Virus record (IMG/VR): IMGVR_UViG_3300023202_000079
Span: 1 to 28,110 of that record
Direction: 5' to 3' (one strand)
Length of the DNA stretch: 28,110 nucleotides
Source: a virus
Shown: positions 4,961 through 26,793 of the stretch, one piece after another
Layout: each line of letters opens with the position of its first letter
Position numbering within the stretch: the first letter of the stretch is position 1
Made by a program: the position numbers and the translations under genes
Notes under the pieces: generated by a model
Database searches by the model: none
What the model was told of the DNA's origin: nothing
What the model saw: the letters and a program-made list of their open reading frames with translations, nothing else

Positions 4961-5614
4961 ATGAAGATGTACAAATGTAAGAAATGTTCTAATGATAAGA
5001 AAAAGAATGAGTTCAAGAAAAACAAAGCATGCAAAGATGGTATTCAGTTAGTTTGTCGGGAATGTGATAAAAAAATAGCGGCAAACTATTATAAAAAGAA
5101 TCGCAAGGTTATGCTTTCTAAGTTTAAAGCCTATGCAATAAAGCATAGAGAAGAAATTAAGGAATACAGAGAAAAATACTTCTCAAGTAAACATGGAAAA
5201 ATAATGCAAATAATGCAGAACATAAGAAAAAGATGTGATGAGCCTACCAATAAACGGTTTCATCGTTATGGTGGTAGAGGAATTAAAAATCTTTTAACTT
5301 ATGATGATATTTCTATGTTATGGGAAAGAGATAAAGCCAATTCTTTGGTAAAACCTTCTTTAGACCGTATTGATGTAAATGGGAATTATGAAATAGATAA
5401 TTGTCAATTCATTGAAATGAAAGAAAATAGCAGAAAAGATTTAATTAAGTCTGTCAATCAATTAACGATAGATGGGGATCTAATTAAAACTTGGGAAGCT
5501 ATTACATATGCGGAGAAAGATGGTTTTCAAAGAGCCAATATAATAAAATGTTGCAAAGGTCACAGAAAATCTCATAAAGGATATATGTGGTCTTATAAGA
5601 AAAGGAGTGAATAA
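4961..5614 (+). CDS. Free-standing HNH homing endonuclease (YGGRGI type) with NUMOD-like C-terminus
   Basis: This is a site-specific endonuclease that spreads its own gene into alleles lacking it. The N-terminus has a four-Cys zinc unit (C6, C9, C32, C35). The HNH-family signature RYGGRGI is at about 102-108, followed by W121 and the degenerate catalytic region SLDRIDVNGNYEIDNCQF (133-150), where Asp stands where the first His of classic HNH enzymes would be. The last 50 residues (QLTIDGDLIKTWEAI...NIIKCCKGH) look like a NUMOD1-type DNA-binding helix-turn-helix. The gene is AT-rich, lies between capsid and a capsid-associated gene, and has its own promoter and hairpin, all consistent with an inserted mobile gene. 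Start: ATG after GGAGGGTACA. Confidence 0.85.
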   Translation: MKMYKCKKCSNDKKKNEFKKNKACKDGIQLVCRECDKKIAANYYKKNRKVMLSKFKAYAIKHREEIKEYREKYFSSKHGKIMQIMQNIRKRCDEPTNKRFHRYGGRGIKNLLTYDDISMLWERDKANSLVKPSLDRIDVNGNYEIDNCQFIEMKENSRKDLIKSVNQLTIDGDLIKTWEAITYAEKDGFQRANIIKCCKGHRKSHKGYMWSYKKRSE

Positions 5615-5616
5615 AA

Positions 5617-5913
5617 ATGGCTAGTTTAACAAAAAAATCTGAAGCTCTAACAGAGTTCTCAGGGGAAAAGAAGGCCGTTGGTATCGTATTCACAGCTTCT
5701 ACGAATACGAATGATACCGTGACGGTAACTGACCTTACTTCGATCGACGTGGCAGTAGCGACGCCTGTTACAGGTGACGCTGACTGTAACCAGTTGTCGA
5801 TCGAATCTATTTCAGATAACGTTCTAACAGTGAAAGCATTGGAGCAGGACGGTACTGTATGTACCCAGAACCCCACTGACTTTCATTTGATCGTTATTGG
5901 GTCAGAAGGGTAA
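5617..5913 (+). CDS. Small beta-rich protein, candidate capsid decoration or head protein (98 aa)
   Basis: The protein is short, acidic and Thr/Val-rich, with alternating patterns such as NDTVTVTDLTSIDVAVAT, suggesting a beta-sandwich. It was probably the immediate downstream neighbour of the capsid gene before the homing endonuclease inserted; its ribosome-binding site (AAGGAG) lies in the last codons of that gene. Small beta proteins next to the capsid are often decoration or cement proteins, and this role is inferred from position. A strong terminator-like hairpin follows directly. Codon use matches the capsid gene rather than the endonuclease. Confidence 0.6.
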   Translation: MASLTKKSEALTEFSGEKKAVGIVFTASTNTNDTVTVTDLTSIDVAVATPVTGDADCNQLSIESISDNVLTVKALEQDGTVCTQNPTDFHLIVIGSEG

Positions 5914-5920
5914 AAGGGTT

Positions 5921-5950
5921 GGGGCGGTCATTACAGGCCGCCCCTTCTTA
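5921..5950 (+). terminator. Terminator-like GC-rich hairpin after the capsid block
   Basis: GGGGCGGTC (5921-5929) pairs with GGCCGCCCC (5936-5944), giving nine pairs including one G-U, with loop ATTACA. A short pyrimidine tract TTCTTA follows. The stem is very stable but the T-run is weak, so it may act as an attenuator or an mRNA end-protecting structure rather than a complete stop. Confidence 0.7.
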
Positions 5951-5953
5951 CTT

Positions 5954-6544
5954 ATGAAAATATTAGCTTTAATGCCAACAGGTAAGGTCATGGAGTCGGT
6001 AGCGGCCCAGTCGTTAATGGCTCTGCAATCGGATATCCATGGTAAAGGGGACGAATTTCAGATAATGTTCGTCAGCGGACACAATGTCCTTCTGGCAAGG
6101 ACTTTACTTGTAAAAGAGGCCACGAAGCGTGAAGCGGATTATGTTCTATTCCTTGATTCCGACCATGTATACTCATCAAAAGCGTTGTATACGTTAATAA
6201 GTAAGATGGAAGATAATGACTTTGATATCCTCTCAGCCGCTTATAGGTTGCGGGGTAAGGATAACGTATTAGCTCATGGGAGTGTTTCGGACGGTAAATT
6301 CTCCAAAGATAAGCCGGGGGAAGGAATAAAAGAGTGTGATGTTATCGGGTTAGGTTTCGCTGTATTCAAGCATTCATTGGTATGCGAGATCGTAGAGAAG
6401 TATGACACGCTCTTTTGGATGGATGCAAATAAATGTTTAAGTGAGGACGCCTACTTCTGCCGGTTACTTCAGGAAGAAGGGATTAAGATACGTTATGACG
6501 CAGATACGATGGTAGGGCATTTAATGACAACAGTTATCAAGTAG
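5954..6544 (+). CDS. GT-A fold glycosyltransferase-like protein (196 aa)
   Basis: The protein resembles short phage glycosyltransferases of the GT2/Anp1-like kind, which transfer a sugar from a nucleotide-sugar donor. The N-terminal strand MKILALMPTGKV is followed by VSGHNVLLARTLLVKEA and then YVLFLDSDHVY, whose DSD is the metal-binding DxD. Later, GLGFAVFKHSL and SEDAYFCRLLQEEG match the acceptor and catalytic Asp region. The ATG at 5954 is preferred; the longer frame starts with TTG at 5897, inside the previous gene and before the hairpin. No good ribosome-binding site precedes the ATG, so expression may be low. Its place among head genes suggests it modifies virion protein, host surface glycan or DNA; the sequence does not say which. 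Confidence 0.75.
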   Translation: MKILALMPTGKVMESVAAQSLMALQSDIHGKGDEFQIMFVSGHNVLLARTLLVKEATKREADYVLFLDSDHVYSSKALYTLISKMEDNDFDILSAAYRLRGKDNVLAHGSVSDGKFSKDKPGEGIKECDVIGLGFAVFKHSLVCEIVEKYDTLFWMDANKCLSEDAYFCRLLQEEGIKIRYDADTMVGHLMTTVIK

Positions 6545-7476: not shown

Positions 7477-8376
7477 ATGAGCGTGCCAAATATAAGCTGG
7501 GATGAGACATCTCCGGCCGGTTCGGACAATATTAACGCCGGAGACAACCGGATAAGGGAGCTTAAGGCTCAGATCCGTGAGATCGTAGACGTTGACCATA
7601 AATTCGATTCATCCGGTCAAGACGCGGATATGGGTAAGCATAATAAGTGTACGTTCATTGAAGCGGCTGATATTGGGACTGGAGCGACAGGTTTGCCTAT
7701 TTTAGGAGCGCAGACGGTATCAGGTAAAGCGGAGCTTCTTTTTACGGATGAGGATGATAACGATATTCAACTTACCAGTGCGGGGAGCATTGGCGGTTCT
7801 TCCATGGATTTCACCGGTAACGATTTCACTATCGCCGGGACAGCAACGGTTACAGGCGACGTAGATGTTGACGGTACGGTTAAAGGGGATGATGTAACGA
7901 TTGATACCAATGATACCTTTATCACGTCAAAGGACAACGCCGGAACAGGAACGGTTGACTTGATAAAAGCCGACACGAACGATGTTGCTGTTGTGCCAGA
8001 CGGAACGCAGAATGCCACAAACGCAGCACCTTCCAATGATAAGGATTTGGCTAATAAGAAGTATGTGGATGATTCGATTGTAGATATAGGAACTATTGAA
8101 GATTATGGTACAGGTACAAGTTCTGGGACATCTAAAACATTAGGAGCATTAAAGATATACTATGGGACAGTAAATGTTTCTGGGGCATCTTCACAAGCCA
8201 TAACAAATTTAAATTTTACATCAGCGTCAACTTATACATTACAGTGTACTTTTTCAGAGACATTTGGAGGTAATGGAGAGCCTATAAGAACTGTTAAAGA
8301 CTCAGGATCTCAGTGTACTATTCATAACGATAATGGAGCTGATTTAGACATTTCTTGGGTAGCAATAGGAACCTAA
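7477..8376 (+). CDS. Tail fibre or appendage protein with separate C-terminal adhesin-like module (299 aa)
   Basis: The N-terminus has the phage structural signature SWDETSPAGSDNINAGDNRI followed by RELKAQIREI. The centre is beta-helix-like (FTIAGTATVTGDVDVDG). A linker, PSNDKDLANKKYVDDSI at about 187-203, is characteristic of tail-fibre proteins. The last 95 residues (DYGTGTSSGTSKTL to the end) resemble fibre-tip domains that bind receptors (gp53-like C-terminal type, by eye). The DNA for this last module (from about 8090) is visibly more AT-rich than the first 600 bases, suggesting module exchange. The ATG follows AAGGAGTGAAGT. It sits between adaptor and nozzle genes. Confidence 0.65.
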   Translation: MSVPNISWDETSPAGSDNINAGDNRIRELKAQIREIVDVDHKFDSSGQDADMGKHNKCTFIEAADIGTGATGLPILGAQTVSGKAELLFTDEDDNDIQLTSAGSIGGSSMDFTGNDFTIAGTATVTGDVDVDGTVKGDDVTIDTNDTFITSKDNAGTGTVDLIKADTNDVAVVPDGTQNATNAAPSNDKDLANKKYVDDSIVDIGTIEDYGTGTSSGTSKTLGALKIYYGTVNVSGASSQAITNLNFTSASTYTLQCTFSETFGGNGEPIRTVKDSGSQCTIHNDNGADLDISWVAIGT

Positions 8377-9919: not shown

Positions 9920-10335
9920 TGGCACTTAACAGGTTAGGTATTGGGGATATAGCGTTACCGGCACCGCAGACAGAGCAAGAGCGGGATTTAAAAATATCTT
10001 TGGAAGATATTATCTCTCAAATGCGAGATAATGTTGGATATTTGCTTAAACCGAGGATTGTAACTGTTACGTCGGATTATACAGCTACGGACTTGGATAA
10101 TACGATTCTAGGCGACGCGTCATCCGCTCAAGTAACAGTTACCTTGCCGGACGCTACGACAACAGAAGGGTTGATGCTTTATATTAAGAAGACGGACGCT
10201 TCCAATAACGTTGTTATCGACGGAAACGGAAGCCAGACGATCGACGGAAGCACGACACATACATTATCGTCACAGAACGATTCGGTTCAAATACAGTCAA
10301 ACGGGACTAACTGGTTTATAATTGCGAAGCAATGA
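9919..10335 (+). CDS. Beta-rich virion protein, fibre/decoration-like (138 aa)
   Basis: A short helical N-terminus (QTEQERDLKISLEDIISQM) precedes a domain with the common phage pattern VTLPDATTTEGLMLYIKKTD, then NNVVIDGNGSQTIDG and a closing QIQSNGTNWFII. This last domain recurs at fibre tips and on head or tail decorations; it is recognised by pattern only. The ATG overlaps the preceding TAA (TAATG). The 3' end overlaps the next gene by four bases (ATGA). Probably a small appendage attached to the tail. Confidence 0.6.
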   Translation: MALNRLGIGDIALPAPQTEQERDLKISLEDIISQMRDNVGYLLKPRIVTVTSDYTATDLDNTILGDASSAQVTVTLPDATTTEGLMLYIKKTDASNNVVIDGNGSQTIDGSTTHTLSSQNDSVQIQSNGTNWFIIAKQ

Positions 10336-10727
10336 TTTATCCATATTTACGGAAGGAAGATATTTTGCCGATATTAGATAGAATTAAAGATTTAAGACCT
10401 AAAGATTATGATAAGGTTAAGTCTAAAATATCAGACTTGAATTATATCAACGATCAATTCGTATGTGTCAGTCGTGATAAGGGTATTATAGACGGATTTA
10501 TGTTCGCAACGATAGAGTCTTTTGATATGCAGTTATGTATATTTATTCAATATTGTTTTGCTGATAAAAACGGAATAGCACAGCAGATGTTAGACAATGT
10601 AACGGAATGGTCAAAGGAACGAGATATATATAACTTAATTTTCCTAAGTGAGAGAAATTCAAAATCATGGGAAAGAAAATATAAATTTAAAGAAATATAT
10701 AAGGTACTTAAAAGGAGTATCCGATGA
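10332..10727 (+). CDS. GNAT-like acetyltransferase or acyltransferase-fold protein (131 aa)
   Basis: The arrangement resembles a compact GNAT domain: a central strand with IDGFMFATIES, then CIFIQYCFADKNGIAQQMLD, where the family has its acyl-CoA-binding loop and helix, then YNLIFLSERNSKSWERKYKF, typical of GNAT motif B, and a final strand. The normal Q/R-x-x-G-x-G/A loop is only partly kept (ADKNGIAQQ), so catalytic activity is uncertain. Small GNAT-like proteins are known between phage tail genes, where their role is unclear. The DNA is more AT-rich than its neighbours, suggesting an added gene. It overlaps both neighbours by four bases (ATGA). Confidence 0.55.
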   Translation: MIYPYLRKEDILPILDRIKDLRPKDYDKVKSKISDLNYINDQFVCVSRDKGIIDGFMFATIESFDMQLCIFIQYCFADKNGIAQQMLDNVTEWSKERDIYNLIFLSERNSKSWERKYKFKEIYKVLKRSIR

Positions 10728-14465: not shown

Positions 14466-14798
14466 ATGTCCGTAATAAAAGAAACGATAACCCAAGATTT
14501 AAGTTCCGCCGCGGTAGATACGTCACTCGATTATCCGTATGATATAAGTATTGTTCAGATACTCTTAACAGCATCAACGAACATAACCGAAACAGTTACA
14601 ATAAGTTTCGATTCCGGTGACGGATCTGATTTCGATGTGGATTTAGATGTTAAAGATTTAGATGCTGAATCTGATTATGTATATAGACCGATAGGGATGC
14701 CTGTTATTCCACGATCTGATAAATTAAGAATACAGGTAACAAACGCAAATGCCACAGGAACGGTAAGAATAACCGTACTAACGGAGGCCAGACCATGA
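14466..14798 (+). CDS. Small beta-rich acidic protein, likely virion-associated (110 aa)
   Basis: A beta-sandwich-like pattern with alternating Thr/Val/Asp (NITETVTISFDSGDGSDFDV) and a final strand TGTVRITVLTEAR. It recalls small phage structural proteins that display on the surface, and it has weak similarity in style, not sequence, to the 98-aa protein after the capsid. It has no known domain. The ATG follows AGGAAAAATCAA. Its end overlaps the following coiled-coil gene by four bases (ATGA), so the pair is probably coupled. Confidence 0.55.
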   Translation: MSVIKETITQDLSSAAVDTSLDYPYDISIVQILLTASTNITETVTISFDSGDGSDFDVDLDVKDLDAESDYVYRPIGMPVIPRSDKLRIQVTNANATGTVRITVLTEARP

Positions 14799-15697
14799 CA
14801 AAGAAAGATGATTTAAAAGAAACCTTGAAAGACCTTCAGGGAGAGAAAAATACTTTGGAAAATTATATTACCAAAGCTAAGAGTGAATTAAAAAGGTATG
14901 AGGTAAAGGGAAAAGAAGCACGATCAGAGTTCGAGAAATTGGATAATAAGAATAAAGAGCTTGAAGAGAAGGTTAATAATTTAGAAGAGACCGTTAAAGC
15001 GGAGTATGAAAAAGAGCGTACATCTTATGATGTTCAGTTCGCGGAACTGGCTGATGAGATAAAAACTCTAAGAGAGAAGAAGAACGATCTTAAAGAAGAA
15101 GTTAATAAAGCAGTACGTGAAGCTGTTGCTGATGAGAAGGAAGAGCTGAAAGAACGTAAGAATGAGCTTAACCGGAAGTTGTCTGAAGTAAAGAAGAACA
15201 ATGCTGAAGTTGGATCGGTCAAGAAGAAGATGGCTGATATCCAGAAGAAAGCTGAGGAAGAGAGGCAAAAGTACGAACAAGCCAAGAAACGTATGGATGC
15301 AAAAGTCGAGGCGTTAAATGCTGATAGGGATAACTTGCAGTCTCAGATAAAAGAGTACAATGAGAAGTTAATAGCACTGAATAAAAAGGATGAGGCTCTT
15401 CGTACTAAAGAGAAGGATATTTCTGAGAAGAAAGAAAGTCTTGCGAAGGATAAAAAGGCGTTAGAAAGTACAGTGAACTCATACGAAGATAAGTTGAAAA
15501 AGATAGAAGAGAAACAAGCTGACCTTGTAGAAAGAGAGAATAGGTTATCTAAAAGTGAAGTTGATATTCAAGTTAAGAATAAGTCTTTAGAGTCTAAAGA
15601 AAAAGAAATTGAAGAAAAAGAGAAGGCTCTTAAATATAAAGAATTACGTTTAAACAAAGCTATTAGAGACAGGAACATGGAGGGAGCTTTATCTTGA
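14795..15697 (+). CDS. Long coiled-coil protein (300 aa)
   Basis: Almost the whole protein is a continuous heptad-patterned coiled coil rich in Lys, Glu and Leu (LKDLQGEKNTLENYITKAK; KEKDISEKKESLAKDKKAL; ESKEKEIEEKEKALKYKEL). No globular domain is evident. A rod this long would extend tens of nanometres. Lying just before the 1001-aa fibre-like protein, it could be a fibre shaft, a connector or a tail tape-like rod. Its start overlaps the previous gene (ATGA), and its stop overlaps the TTG start of the next (TTGA). Confidence 0.65.
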   Translation: MTKKDDLKETLKDLQGEKNTLENYITKAKSELKRYEVKGKEARSEFEKLDNKNKELEEKVNNLEETVKAEYEKERTSYDVQFAELADEIKTLREKKNDLKEEVNKAVREAVADEKEELKERKNELNRKLSEVKKNNAEVGSVKKKMADIQKKAEEERQKYEQAKKRMDAKVEALNADRDNLQSQIKEYNEKLIALNKKDEALRTKEKDISEKKESLAKDKKALESTVNSYEDKLKKIEEKQADLVERENRLSKSEVDIQVKNKSLESKEKEIEEKEKALKYKELRLNKAIRDRNMEGALS

Positions 15698-18600
15698 AAA
15701 GGATCCTTTTAATATTATTGTTTATCGCGTCCCCGGTATTCGCGCAAGAGTCGTATATCGGTGGAAGAGGGATATCGGATATAGATATCTTACAATTTGA
15801 CGGAATGTCCGCTCCGTCAACGTCCTCTTTAGGAGATGCTCGTATATACTTCGACACTACAGCCGGAACTTTGAAATGCTCCGAAGATGGAGGGGCGTAT
15901 ACGGATTGTGTCGGAGGCGGCTCAGGCGACATCTCCGGCCCCGTTTCATCCACAGACAACGCCATACCCCGATGGGATGGTACAGGGGGAGACGCACTGC
16001 AGGATTCCGGCATTACCGTTGATGATTCGGACAATATCACAATACCAAGCCTAACGAGTTGCGACACTATCGACACGGATTCTAATGGGCTTCTTTCCTG
16101 CGGTTCAGATGCCACGGGAGCAGGCGGTTCAGCCATTACACTGGATTTAGGAGATGACGGTGGAGATGATTCTACTGACCTTACCGAGATAGCTACTTCA
16201 GGGGACACGAACTCTATATTCACCGAGCCGTCAGCGGATAAACTTCTCATAACCTTATCGAACAACTGGCCTAGTGCGGACACAGCAGACGCTTTAAGCT
16301 CTAATCCGACGGCGGCAACGTCAGGGTCGGTCATTACGGACATAGCGGCAGACGGTACTGTTGAGGGAGAGGTGGATGTATGGACAGAAGCGGAAAATAC
16401 ATCAGCGGCGTACATATCGGCTTCGTCTGCTGACACCTTAACAAATAAGACTTTTGACGCAAACGGAATAGGAAACAGTTTATCCAATGTTGACCTTGAC
16501 GATATGGTGGCAGGGGATATTGTCACTGAAGGCGAAGGGATAGCTTCCAATGATAATGATACGACCTTGCCTACATCAGCGGCCGTTAAAGATTATGCGG
16601 ACAGTAATGACGACACCGGAACAGATGACCAGACCGTTGATGTGTTTTCATTTTCAAACCCTACTATAAGCCTTTCTTTAGAGGATGACGGGGAGGCCAA
16701 TAAGACTGTTGATATATCCGCAATAGACACAACGCTTGATCTTAGCGGTGCGGAAACTATCACTGGAAACTGGGTCAACACGGCAAACCCATGGGCAGAC
16801 AACGAAGTAGCTGATGATATTACCATTGACCTTGCCACACTTGCAACAACCGTCACGGTCAGTGATGATGAAAGCACGAATGACAACCATGAAATTGTTT
16901 TCACCACGGATAACACTAATCTGGAATCAGACGGAACGGCTACTTATAACCCTTCAAGCGGTACAATAACAGCAACAGCCTTTTCCGGTGCCGGAACTTC
17001 ATTAACAGCATTAAACGGTGAGAACATTCAAAACGACACGATAGACGATGATTCGATTGATTTTAGTGATGTTACGCTTAATGACTTAACCTTCGATGTG
17101 AACAGTACGACAAAGACCGAGTTTGGGTATGTTAATGGCGTCACATCCGCTATACAGACACAGTTAGATGGCAAAGAAGGAACGTTATCTAACGAAGCAG
17201 GACTCTACTCCGCTTTAAGTGACGTGACGGACTTTGTACAGGCAGGAGAGGCCAATTCTATTGATTCGGATATGTATGTAGACGGGTCTATTGATAATGC
17301 TCATTTGGCGGATGACGTTATTTCAGGGGCGACAGCGGTAGGAACTTTTGAATCAGGCGACACTTTTCTTTGTTTAGAGGCCGGGGTAGGTCTAAAGGAA
17401 TGTGATTTTGACGACCTTCCGGCAGGTGGCGGAGGAGGAGATACTTATACAGCAAGCGGAACCCTATTATCTTTAACCGGAACGGCTTTCAGCGTTAATG
17501 AAGGTACCTTAACAGACGAAGGAATTTGCACGTATGAGAGTACGGGCGACAATTTGGTATGTGACGGGATGACTTATAACGGGTCGAATTTCAAAGTTAA
17601 TTCTGATTCTGATTTATTTGTGAACGGGTCAAACGGAAGGGTTGGTATTGGTACAGCTTCTCCGGGACAGAACCTTCACATACAATCCACAGCGTCAGCA
17701 AGAATAGAGCTGGAAGCGGATACAGACAATGCAAACGAAGATCATATTGCTGAAATAATTTTTGATCAAGACGGCGGGGCGTATACATCGAAGCTAAGAA
17801 TGGCAGGGGATTACAACGCTTTTGTTATAGAACCGGACGGCGGGTTCGCAAGGATGGATATTCTACAAGATGACACGACTTATTGGCAGATCGGTCGTGA
17901 AGATGACAGGTATCATAGAATAGATTTTAATAATTCAAGCTCAACAGCCTCCAATAATCATATCTGGTTTCGTGTTCATAACGGCACATTGGACGGTCTT
18001 GTTACGGCGTTAATGTTAGAAGGTGACGGGGATGTTGGGATAGGAATACAGAACCCGACTTTAAGGTTAGACGTTGCGGCCTCTGAATCTATTGGGTTTA
18101 ATGGAACGGCCATTTTATCTGATTCGGCAGGGGATATGACGTTATCGAATGTAGACGGCCTTGACTCCACAACGGCTACCACCATAGCAACCGAAACGGA
18201 TGCGGCCACCACAACGGCTACCGGGGTTTTAGAACTTGCTACGACAACAGAAACCACAACCGGAACATCTACAACGGTTTCTTTAACCCCGGACTCTTTA
18301 GCAGGGTCTGATTTCGGGAAAAGGGCTATATCTGTCATTGTGTTTGATGATTCACAAGACGTTGCCACAGGTGACGGGGCAGGGGATGTCTTTTACAGGG
18401 TTCCTTCTATTATGGACGGGTATAACATTGTGGAGGTAGCGTGCCATGTTCAGACTTCAGGAACCACAAACACAACGGATGTTCAGTTAAGGAACGTAAC
18501 GGATACGGCTGATGTTTTATCCACAAAGTGCACCATTGACTCTGGGGAAACGGATTCAAGCACAGCGGCAACGGCTCCGGCTATCAACACGTCTAATGAC

Positions 18601-18699
18601 GACGTTGCGACAGGTGACGAGTTAAGGTTTGACGTGGACTCCGTATCAACAACAGCTCCCAAGGGATTGTTAGTGGAGGTTCAATTTCAATTACCATGA
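15694..18699 (+). CDS. Large fibre-like protein with N-terminal signal peptide (1001 aa)
   Basis: The first 18 residues, MKRILLILLFIASPVFAQ, form a classical Sec signal peptide with an AxA-type cleavage site (VFA/Q). The mature part is beta-rich, low in Lys/Arg and rich in Asp, Thr and Ser. It carries typical tail-fibre units: GDISGPVSSTDNAIPRWDGT, then DTLTNKTFDANGIGNS, TLPTSAAVKDYADS, and GRVGIGTASPGQNLHI near 650. The C-terminal 160 residues include a Thr-rich stretch and a beta domain probably at the tip. The start is TTG, overlapping the previous stop and preceded by GGAGGGAG. Fibre-like content with an export signal is unusual for a virion protein, which assembles in the cytoplasm. It could be a secreted or surface adhesin, or the leader could be retained as an N-terminal anchor. 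Confidence 0.75.
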   Translation: MKRILLILLFIASPVFAQESYIGGRGISDIDILQFDGMSAPSTSSLGDARIYFDTTAGTLKCSEDGGAYTDCVGGGSGDISGPVSSTDNAIPRWDGTGGDALQDSGITVDDSDNITIPSLTSCDTIDTDSNGLLSCGSDATGAGGSAITLDLGDDGGDDSTDLTEIATSGDTNSIFTEPSADKLLITLSNNWPSADTADALSSNPTAATSGSVITDIAADGTVEGEVDVWTEAENTSAAYISASSADTLTNKTFDANGIGNSLSNVDLDDMVAGDIVTEGEGIASNDNDTTLPTSAAVKDYADSNDDTGTDDQTVDVFSFSNPTISLSLEDDGEANKTVDISAIDTTLDLSGAETITGNWVNTANPWADNEVADDITIDLATLATTVTVSDDESTNDNHEIVFTTDNTNLESDGTATYNPSSGTITATAFSGAGTSLTALNGENIQNDTIDDDSIDFSDVTLNDLTFDVNSTTKTEFGYVNGVTSAIQTQLDGKEGTLSNEAGLYSALSDVTDFVQAGEANSIDSDMYVDGSIDNAHLADDVISGATAVGTFESGDTFLCLEAGVGLKECDFDDLPAGGGGGDTYTASGTLLSLTGTAFSVNEGTLTDEGICTYESTGDNLVCDGMTYNGSNFKVNSDSDLFVNGSNGRVGIGTASPGQNLHIQSTASARIELEADTDNANEDHIAEIIFDQDGGAYTSKLRMAGDYNAFVIEPDGGFARMDILQDDTTYWQIGREDDRYHRIDFNNSSSTASNNHIWFRVHNGTLDGLVTALMLEGDGDVGIGIQNPTLRLDVAASESIGFNGTAILSDSAGDMTLSNVDGLDSTTATTIATETDAATTTATGVLELATTTETTTGTSTTVSLTPDSLAGSDFGKRAISVIVFDDSQDVATGDGAGDVFYRVPSIMDGYNIVEVACHVQTSGTTNTTDVQLRNVTDTADVLSTKCTIDSGETDSSTAATAPAINTSNDDVATGDELRFDVDSVSTTAPKGLLVEVQFQLP

Positions 18700-19100
18700 G
18701 ACATTTTATAATTATATTATTTCTTATCTTCACTCCTAATATAGCTTTTGGAGATGTTCCACAGTGTTATGTAGCTGAGAACGCCGGGTCAGGTGACGCT
18801 AACCAAGAGTATAATTATGACAGGGACGACGGTTCAGGACGGCCTATTTATGTTGGAGATACTAATTCAGATATTGAACTTAGTTATGGAGTACATTTCG
18901 GTACATTCCAACCTGCTTGGACTATACAAGATACTTCTTTTGGTGACCAGTTATACGCTAAAGAATCAGGAGGACAGACATCCCAGCCTGTTGAAGGTAC
19001 TTATGACGCAGTTCTGGGAGGCCCTCCCGGAGCTGATGTAAGTGAGTGTGGCGGTGGAGGTGAAGAAAGTTTTAACACGCAAATTATAAATTTATATTAA
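18696..19100 (+). CDS. Exported small protein (134 aa)
   Basis: MRHFIIILFLIFTPNIAFG is a signal peptide with an AFG/D cleavage site. The mature part is acidic, about 115 residues, with two Cys (C24 and one near the C-terminus in SECGGGGEES) that could form a disulfide after export. The middle (DDGSGRPIYVGDTNSDIEL) is beta-like. No family is recognised. Its ATG overlaps the stop of the fibre-like gene (ATGA), so it is translationally coupled to it and may be its partner or chaperone. Confidence 0.65.
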   Translation: MRHFIIILFLIFTPNIAFGDVPQCYVAENAGSGDANQEYNYDRDDGSGRPIYVGDTNSDIELSYGVHFGTFQPAWTIQDTSFGDQLYAKESGGQTSQPVEGTYDAVLGGPPGADVSECGGGGEESFNTQIINLY

Positions 19101-19110
19101 AGGAGGGGAA

Positions 19111-19527
19111 ATGAGATTATTGTCAACATCAATATTAATTATGTTCTTATGCGTAGGGTATGTTCATGCTCAGGAAGCGTATGTTAGACAAACGCTTTAT
19201 AAAAAGGAATATGTTTCGGATGTTATTTTTTATAGGACAGAGATAGACCATAAGAACGGGGGGATAAATATTAAATACCGATTATCTGTTGCCCCAGGCG
19301 AGACAGAACTTTTGCCTGATAGTGGGTATATCAATTTAGACATTAAAGATTATCCTGATTTGGTAGCGGCCATTAATAACCTAAAAAGGGAAGTTATTAA
19401 AGAAATCCCTTCCAAGAATTACACAAACATTATTACAGATCAAGACGAAGGAATTGATTGGCAAGAAACAAAACAGAAGGTTCAGGACAAATCAATTAAT
19501 TGGAACCAGTTCGAGGTGGTTAGATAA
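19111..19527 (+). CDS. Exported small protein (138 aa)
   Basis: The N-terminus MRLLSTSILIMFLCVGYVHAQ is a third consecutive signal peptide (VHA/Q). The mature domain is mixed alpha/beta with strands such as EYVSDVIFYRTEIDH and KYRLSVAPGETELLP, and a helical C-terminus (NLKREVIKEIPSKNYTNII). No family is recognised. It is preceded by AAAGGAGGGG. Position between the fibre region and the lysis cassette suggests a role in the periplasm or at the envelope. Confidence 0.65.
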   Translation: MRLLSTSILIMFLCVGYVHAQEAYVRQTLYKKEYVSDVIFYRTEIDHKNGGINIKYRLSVAPGETELLPDSGYINLDIKDYPDLVAAINNLKREVIKEIPSKNYTNIITDQDEGIDWQETKQKVQDKSINWNQFEVVR

Positions 19528-25818: not shown

Positions 25819-25892
25819 TGGTCAGACAGGGAATCGAACCCCGGACCTACTCATTATGAGTGAGTTGCTCTAACCGACTGAGCTATCTGACC
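25819..25892 (-). tRNA. tRNA with CAT anticodon (Met, or Ile2 if modified)
   Basis: A full cloverleaf fits. The acceptor GGTCAGA/TCTGACC is followed by discriminator A. The D-arm is GCTC/GAGC, the anticodon stem ACTCA/TGAGT with loop CTCATAA, and the T-arm CGGGG/CCCTG with loop TTCGATT. The length is 74 bases without an encoded CCA. The anticodon CAT gives elongator Met by default, but Ile(CAT) with lysidine cannot be excluded. The loop and its surroundings resemble bacterial elongator Met. Confidence 0.93.
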
Positions 25893-26046: not shown

Positions 26047-26793
26047 TCAAAACAACTGCCCCTGTGCTTGATGGCGTTCTAACCTTAGCTTAGCGGCGTT
26101 GTAGTAGTCTTTGTCTATTTCTGAACCAATGAAATGTCTTTTTGTATCCCAACAAGCTATTGCACTAGTACCACTACCAACAAAAGGATCAAATACTTTT
26201 CCATATAAAGGTGTTGTCATGTTAATAGCTATATGAGCCAACTTAAGAGGAAAAGGCGCTGGATGTTCTGTGTTATTATCTGGAGGAAACCTCCAAATTT
26301 CTGTAGAGAATTTTTTATTTGTTTTATTACACATAGGTTTCTTCTTTGTAAGCCAAAATATTATTTCAGTTGTAGGGTCAAGGTAGTTTACATTATGGTC
26401 ACATGAACCGCATCTATCCCATATTATTTGTTGATAGAAAGTTAGTCTACTATTCTGTATCCACTCAAAAGGGTGTGAACCTGATGAGTTAAATCTCCTT
26501 ATTTTATGATTGTATAGGAAACTTCCTGTAGGTCTAATAATCCTATACCCCTCATTAAGAATACTAATTTGCCATGATTTATATTCTTCTTCTTTCATAT
26601 TATCATCATAAGAATTATATTTTATATCAGCCCCAGACCATCTTCCTTTCCCTTTTGACGTATCTTTTCTTCCTCTAAAACCATTTTTATTATATGGAGG
26701 AGATGTCAATATTAAGTCAATACTGTTGTCTGGAATTTCCTTCATAGCCTCCATACAATCCCCATGTATCAGTTTAATGTCTGCACGCATCAT
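26047..26793 (-). CDS. Beta-class DNA (N4-cytosine/N6-adenine) methyltransferase (248 aa)
   Basis: Motif IV, LILTSPPYN (28-35), is near the N-terminus, and the SAM-binding motif FDPFVGSGT is near 201-209. This order, IV before I, defines the beta class (PF01555). HPAPFPLKLAHIAINM before motif I is the usual motif X region, and IGSEIDKDYYNAAKLRLE follows as normal. TSPPY alone does not settle N4C versus N6A. Length is normal for stand-alone phage methylases. Two adjacent ATGs (26793, 26790) both overlap the upstream stop; the ribosome-binding site GGGGAGG suits the second slightly better. No restriction enzyme lies nearby, so it probably protects phage DNA. Confidence 0.92.
   Translation of the reverse strand: MMRADIKLIHGDCMEAMKEIPDNSIDLILTSPPYNKNGFRGRKDTSKGKGRWSGADIKYNSYDDNMKEEEYKSWQISILNEGYRIIRPTGSFLYNHKIRRFNSSGSHPFEWIQNSRLTFYQQIIWDRCGSCDHNVNYLDPTTEIIFWLTKKKPMCNKTNKKFSTEIWRFPPDNNTEHPAPFPLKLAHIAINMTTPLYGKVFDPFVGSGTSAIACWDTKRHFIGSEIDKDYYNAAKLRLERHQAQGQLF

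Follow-up and report, generated by a model that had tools for sequence, protein, structure and literature searches.

Genes and leaders of the block

The window, which is the whole stretch of DNA analysed here, is a 28,110-base IMG/VR virus record (IMGVR_UViG_3300023202_000079) that encodes a P22-type portal (E 1.6e-95), a Phage_capsid_3 capsid protein and a nozzle/stabilization-like protein (PHROG 3287). The ejection-type genes are followed in order by a 110-aa protein (S110), a 300-aa coiled-coil protein, P1, P2, P3 and a lysis-like set, all on the plus strand. S110 (14466..14798) matches PHROG 486, a virion structural protein, at E 0.004; its homologues lie near exported fibres in two uncultivated phages, L002 and L084, and in both a similar coiled-coil gene comes after the S110 homologue. 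The coiled-coil protein of the window (14795..15697), predicted to be cytoplasmic, overlaps the start of P1. An ordinary virion-type fibre without a signal peptide is also encoded in the window (7477..8376, plus strand).

P1 (15694..18699, 1001 aa) was delineated as an exported fibre-like protein from its ORF, Shine-Dalgarno sequence, Sec signal and fibre modules. Its start codon is TTG, with GGAGG about 10 nt upstream, and overlaps the stop codon of the preceding gene (TTGA, 15694-15697). P2 (18696..19100, 134 aa, two cysteines) and P3 (19111..19527, 138 aa) are small proteins predicted to be exported by the Sec signal rule. P1 and P2 share 4 nt (ATGA, 18696-18699) and the gap between P2 and P3 is at most 11 nt, in agreement with the coupled or closely spaced genes described in the sequence-only reading. 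Because the genes overlap or nearly touch, a single coupled late transcript is likely from the gene order; promoter and terminator scans of the window gave results no better than shuffles. The set downstream of P3 (19537..20983), called lysis-like from position and topology, consists of a transmembrane (TM) protein, a TM/coiled-coil protein, a 177-aa protein (PHROG 1128) and a small lipoprotein. The small lipoprotein adjoining these genes points to a diderm host.

Several other genes of the window were recorded. A 131-aa protein between the nozzle-like and ejection-type genes (10332-10727) is acetyltransferase-like by position, and gp18 of phage KLEP18-1, at the matching position, is annotated as a putative aminoglycoside acetyltransferase. 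A Cys-rich, HNH-like 217-aa protein directly follows the capsid gene (4961-5614), a glycosyltransferase-like 215-aa protein has a DSDH motif (5897-6544), and the minus strand carries a DNA methyltransferase-like protein with a TSPPYN motif (26047-26793) and a tRNA-Met (CAT) found by ARAGORN (25819-25892).

Signal peptides were called with a home-made rule, in strict and looser forms, that looks for a positive n-region, a hydrophobic core and small residues at -3 and -1. The strict form called P1, P2 and P3 and no other window gene, while the looser form also passed 5617-5913, weakly. The leaders and their predicted cleavage sites are MKRILLILLFIASPVFA^QES for P1 (residues 1-17, 15694..15744, plus strand), MRHFIIILFLIFTPNIAFG^DVP for P2 and MRLLSTSILIMFLCVGYVHA^QEA for P3. 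Three consecutive proteins with Sec leaders at 15694-19527, of 1001, 134 and 138 aa, had been claimed from the sequence alone, and the claim was correct in coordinates and lengths; cleavage after VFA is indeed the best predicted site in the P1 leader. Signal-peptide genes thus number 3 of 38 in the window and all are adjacent (permutation p = 0.004). N-terminal shuffles of P1-P3 with the same composition passed the rule at a rate of 0.6-2.8%. A control set of 30 E. coli K-12 proteins contained five known signal-peptide proteins, of which the strict rule found three, with no false calls, and the core is more hydrophobic in all three leaders of the block than in the control proteins that were found. 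Chance leaders were rejected on the permutation, the shuffles and the rate in related phages (7 of 482 genes, described below).

We also considered whether the leader anchors the protein or is retained, as had been suggested. All three leaders have a short h-region and good signal-peptidase sites; we found no lipobox in them and no second TM segment in P1-P3. These features argue against an anchoring or retained leader, and a membrane anchor or a lipoprotein was ruled out by the missing lipobox and the missing further TM segment. Display on the intact infected cell, another earlier suggestion, is unlikely given a host that is probably diderm and the lack of any match to a surface-anchor or outer-membrane domain. 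Release of the protein at lysis fits.

Fibre modules, tip and cysteines of P1

Taken whole, P1 was without match in Pfam, PHROG, NCBIfam and the PDB. It is very acidic, with 171 Asp and Glu residues against 31 Lys and Arg. P1 shares sequence modules with phage fibres; the earlier description of "fibre-region" proteins applies to P2 and P3 only by position. The region after the signal contains a first close cysteine pair, C62/C72 (15745..15918). Residues 228-235 (16375..16398) form a DVWTEAEN fibre module that is common to about 20 other contigs. The shaft (17587..18198) carries two VGIG..xP...L capping-loop-like motifs, at residues 650-661 and 781-792, and is followed by the C-terminal tip (18268..18696), a predicted C1q/TNF-like jelly roll with cysteines 917 and 946. 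The tip model (pLDDT 71.5, pTM 0.66) gave weak Foldseek matches to C1q-type and viral jelly rolls in the PDB (TM about 0.4) and matches to phage tail proteins in BFVD at 1e-9 to 1e-4. The tip is shared with phage fibres that lack signal peptides, at up to 63% identity. In three of them, L076, L077 and L078, identity in the aligned tip is 61, 47 and 36%, and L076 and L078 match tail-fibre PHROGs; unlike P1, none of the three has a visible signal peptide or tip cysteines. The predicted structure of P3, built without an alignment, was unusable (pLDDT 41).

The three best PDB matches of the P1 shaft, all weak (E 0.005, 0.009 and 0.056), were mosaic adhesive trimer (MAT) proteins of Bdellovibrio, and MATs were also the four best PDB matches of the exported fibre of another contig, L044 (4.8e-8 to 0.002). 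MATs of Bdellovibrio bacteriovorus are signal-peptide-bearing, tail-fibre-like trimers on the predator surface, with C-terminal tips that include TNF/C1q-like folds (PMC10769870). Like P1, they have a signal peptide and a length of about 1000 aa, and their tail-fibre-like shaft with capping-loop motifs and their swappable C-terminal tips (PMC10769870) may have counterparts in the shaft motifs and the predicted jelly-roll tip of P1. The superfamily is recognised by a conserved beta-rich domain of about 130 aa behind the signal peptide (PMC10769870), a trimeric beta-helix shaft with capping loops and an adhesive tip or S74 domain at the C-terminus, and the comparison with P1 was confined to the C-terminal parts that make up the MAT entries in the PDB. 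P1 had no Pfam match to an S74 domain. MATs are predator surface proteins, whereas P1 is a phage gene in a structural operon. This likeness raises the idea that the block is an adhesin of the lysogenic or carrier state, helping the infected host to attach and not the phage to spread. Bacterial MATs and a protein of a Nomurabacteria contig, which share fibre modules and exported N-termini, speak for it, but the block belongs to a probable late operon and adjoins lysis-like genes, and we regard this role as unlikely. Nor was an integrase seen among the ORFs of the window, which is a weak argument because the window is a fragment.

Mature P1 has ten cysteines, which form five close pairs. Among 27 distinct instances of the DVWTEAEN module, both cysteines are present in 16, neither in 11 and only one in none (Fisher 8e-8, kinship not corrected for); P1's own module is one without the pair. 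The tip cysteines 917 and 946 are missing from the three homologues without signal peptide (36-61% identity), and the pairs C123/C136 and C612/C623 are both retained in homologues with hydrophobic N-termini. Exported fibres have 11.7 cysteines per 1000 residues and fibres without signal peptide 3.1 (p 0.004), in small, hand-picked sets. A disulphide between C917 and C946 in the tip is putative and would require the two strands that carry them to be neighbours. Elsewhere, an exported 1107-aa protein of L002 (2327-5650) ends in a laminin-G domain and contains 30 cysteines in its mature form.

Signal-peptide blocks in related phages

Segments in common with P1 were found in 17 IMG/VR loci. By eye, a signal peptide or a hydrophobic N-terminal anchor opens 21 of the 22 fibres with P1 segments, and a signal-peptide ORF lies just upstream of the remaining one, in a sample biased by its selection for similarity to P1. 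Runs of signal-peptide genes occur in L008, L017, L019 and the L002 phage (eight such genes in the record). Four of the module relatives (L005, L010, L012 and L018) have N-termini that look like anchors and not like cleavable leaders. They would favour an explanation in which the leaders of P1-P3 are hydrophobic N-termini for attachment to the virion, or arose by chance, and are not export signals. The shuffle and control rates, the cysteine pairing and the signal peptides that small, unrelated neighbouring proteins carry at this locus all stand against it, and we consider it very improbable.

For an independent test, the window's virion fibre without signal peptide (7477-8376) was used as bait. 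It led to L044 and L084, which have four and three consecutive signal-peptide genes, respectively, at the position of the window block, after the ejection-type genes. L084 is identical to the window at 54% of portal, 56% of capsid and 60% of stabilization-protein residues, and L044 at 43% of capsid and 41% of stabilization-protein residues. The block proteins of both contigs, however, had no match to P1-P3 except for one short shaft repeat in L044, and the block stands before the S110/coiled-coil pair in L084 but after it in the window. As far as these sequences go, the chassis is conserved and the block replaced, the pattern expected of receptor-binding loci. Two other bait matches were uninformative, since the L045 contig stops short of the locus and L046 is without the window's gene order. 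All relatives with a signal-peptide block are uncultivated contigs. Among exported partners in other phages, domain matches were to Laminin_G_3 (1.5e-10) and to a beta-propeller (5.1e-6).

P2 and P3 are orphans, without homologues found among viral contigs or phages. We considered whether P3 could be a "fibre chaperone" common to the small proteins of L044 and L084, and rejected this because the alignment scores were no better than those of shuffles. Probing viral contigs with the nozzle-like protein found nothing, nor did a comparison of the L044 fibre with 61 genomes of the genus of the L019 genome (a Nitrosomonas MAG). An exported fibre within a head-tail operon was seen on a Parcubacteria MAG contig (L020, 6465-9449).

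The P22-like loci of KLEP18-1 (a Paracoccus phage) and Pam5 (a Pseudanabaena phage) carry fibres or spikes at the position of the window block, after the ejection-type genes, and these (KLEP18-1 gp22/23, Pam5 gp16-18) are without signal peptides, unlike P1-P3. Across 11 more distant relatives, 7 of 482 genes passed the signal-peptide rule; by script none were adjacent and no run was found, and the fibre and spike genes checked there had no signal peptide. Nine related records other than KLEP18-1 and Pam5 were without a run of signal-peptide genes under the strict rule. The script's gene picker overlooked gp19 of Pam5, which adjoins the signal-peptide gene gp20. A small pair of signal-peptide genes (L073, 17837-18642), directly after the tail spike, therefore exists in a cultured cyanophage.

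Proposed export and roles of the fibre

The view that P1-P3 are a Sec-exported block and that P1 is an extracytoplasmic adhesive fibre draws its support from the leaders, the modules shared with fibres, the pattern of cysteines and the position of the block, which is conserved. We think this probable for the core alone, apart from any final role. The export is very probably real and selected, given the cysteine data and the repeated occurrence of signal-peptide blocks at the locus, and these bear out the earlier suggestion of an exported fibre-like protein, unusual in tailed phages. The open-access literature yielded no account of tail fibres with signal peptides in tailed phages.

The phage would be a P22-like podovirus whose receptor-binding locus carries the three genes as an adhesive-fibre block, probably expressed late in infection from one coupled transcript. 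Their products would cross the inner membrane via Sec and shed their leaders. Once in the oxidising periplasm, P1 would fold as a long, putatively trimeric fibre, stiffened by several probable disulphides and ending in a jelly-roll binding tip. Because no anchor was found, P1 would remain periplasmic until the cell lyses, after which it would act as an extracellular binding protein, like the Bdellovibrio MAT adhesins.

What P1 would bind for is a separate question. It could be the distal receptor-binding fibre of the virion, maturing in the periplasm and binding the particle after lysis, with a protein such as S110 or the upstream coiled coil as a possible cytoplasmic adaptor. We hold this quite possible, if short of probable. 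The relatives KLEP18-1 and Pam5 keep their virion fibres or spikes at this locus, and fibres that bear the P1-type tip without a signal peptide match tail-fibre PHROGs; in L076 such a fibre follows a coiled-coil gene downstream of head genes. The signal peptide of L017 is directly followed by an N-terminal stretch that appears virion-fibre-like, and in the case of P22, tailspikes can be joined to particles in vitro. Nonetheless, we know of no tailed phage with a Sec-exported component taken into the virion, a pool of free fibres would compete for receptors, and the virion is already supplied with a fibre without signal peptide (7477-8376).

The last point also favours a free adhesin or decoy, or receptor masking, in which P1-P3 leave the lysing cell and attach to receptors on debris or on neighbouring cells, so that progeny are not lost to debris or rival phages are blocked. 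We entertain this role and its uses tentatively. The block has no anchor, its exported partners in other phages have binding-type domains (Laminin_G_3, beta-propeller), and MATs are a precedent for fibres outside virions. A free adhesin would, however, block the phage's own adsorption too, unless the virion fibre uses a different receptor, and no defence-family match was found (PADLOC and NCBIfam searches). Interference with other phages, put forward in the sequence-only reading, is one among several uses that would fit these data, and docking on released virions, absent from that reading, is at least as likely. It is a more doubtful generalisation that, in some tailed phages, distal receptor-binding fibres are secreted by Sec, fold and become oxidised in the periplasm, and complete the virions only after lysis.

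On the usual view, the cytoplasm is where tail fibres are made and attached to virions. Exported, disulphide-stiffened fibres appear to be a real and little-noticed phage route to adhesive fibres, and several uncultivated phages have an exported-fibre block that is conserved in position and variable in sequence. Either virion assembly can be completed beyond the cytoplasm, or secreted adhesins serve phages in managing adsorption. Both options matter for predicting host range from metagenomic data, in which genes of this kind would pass as ordinary fibres.
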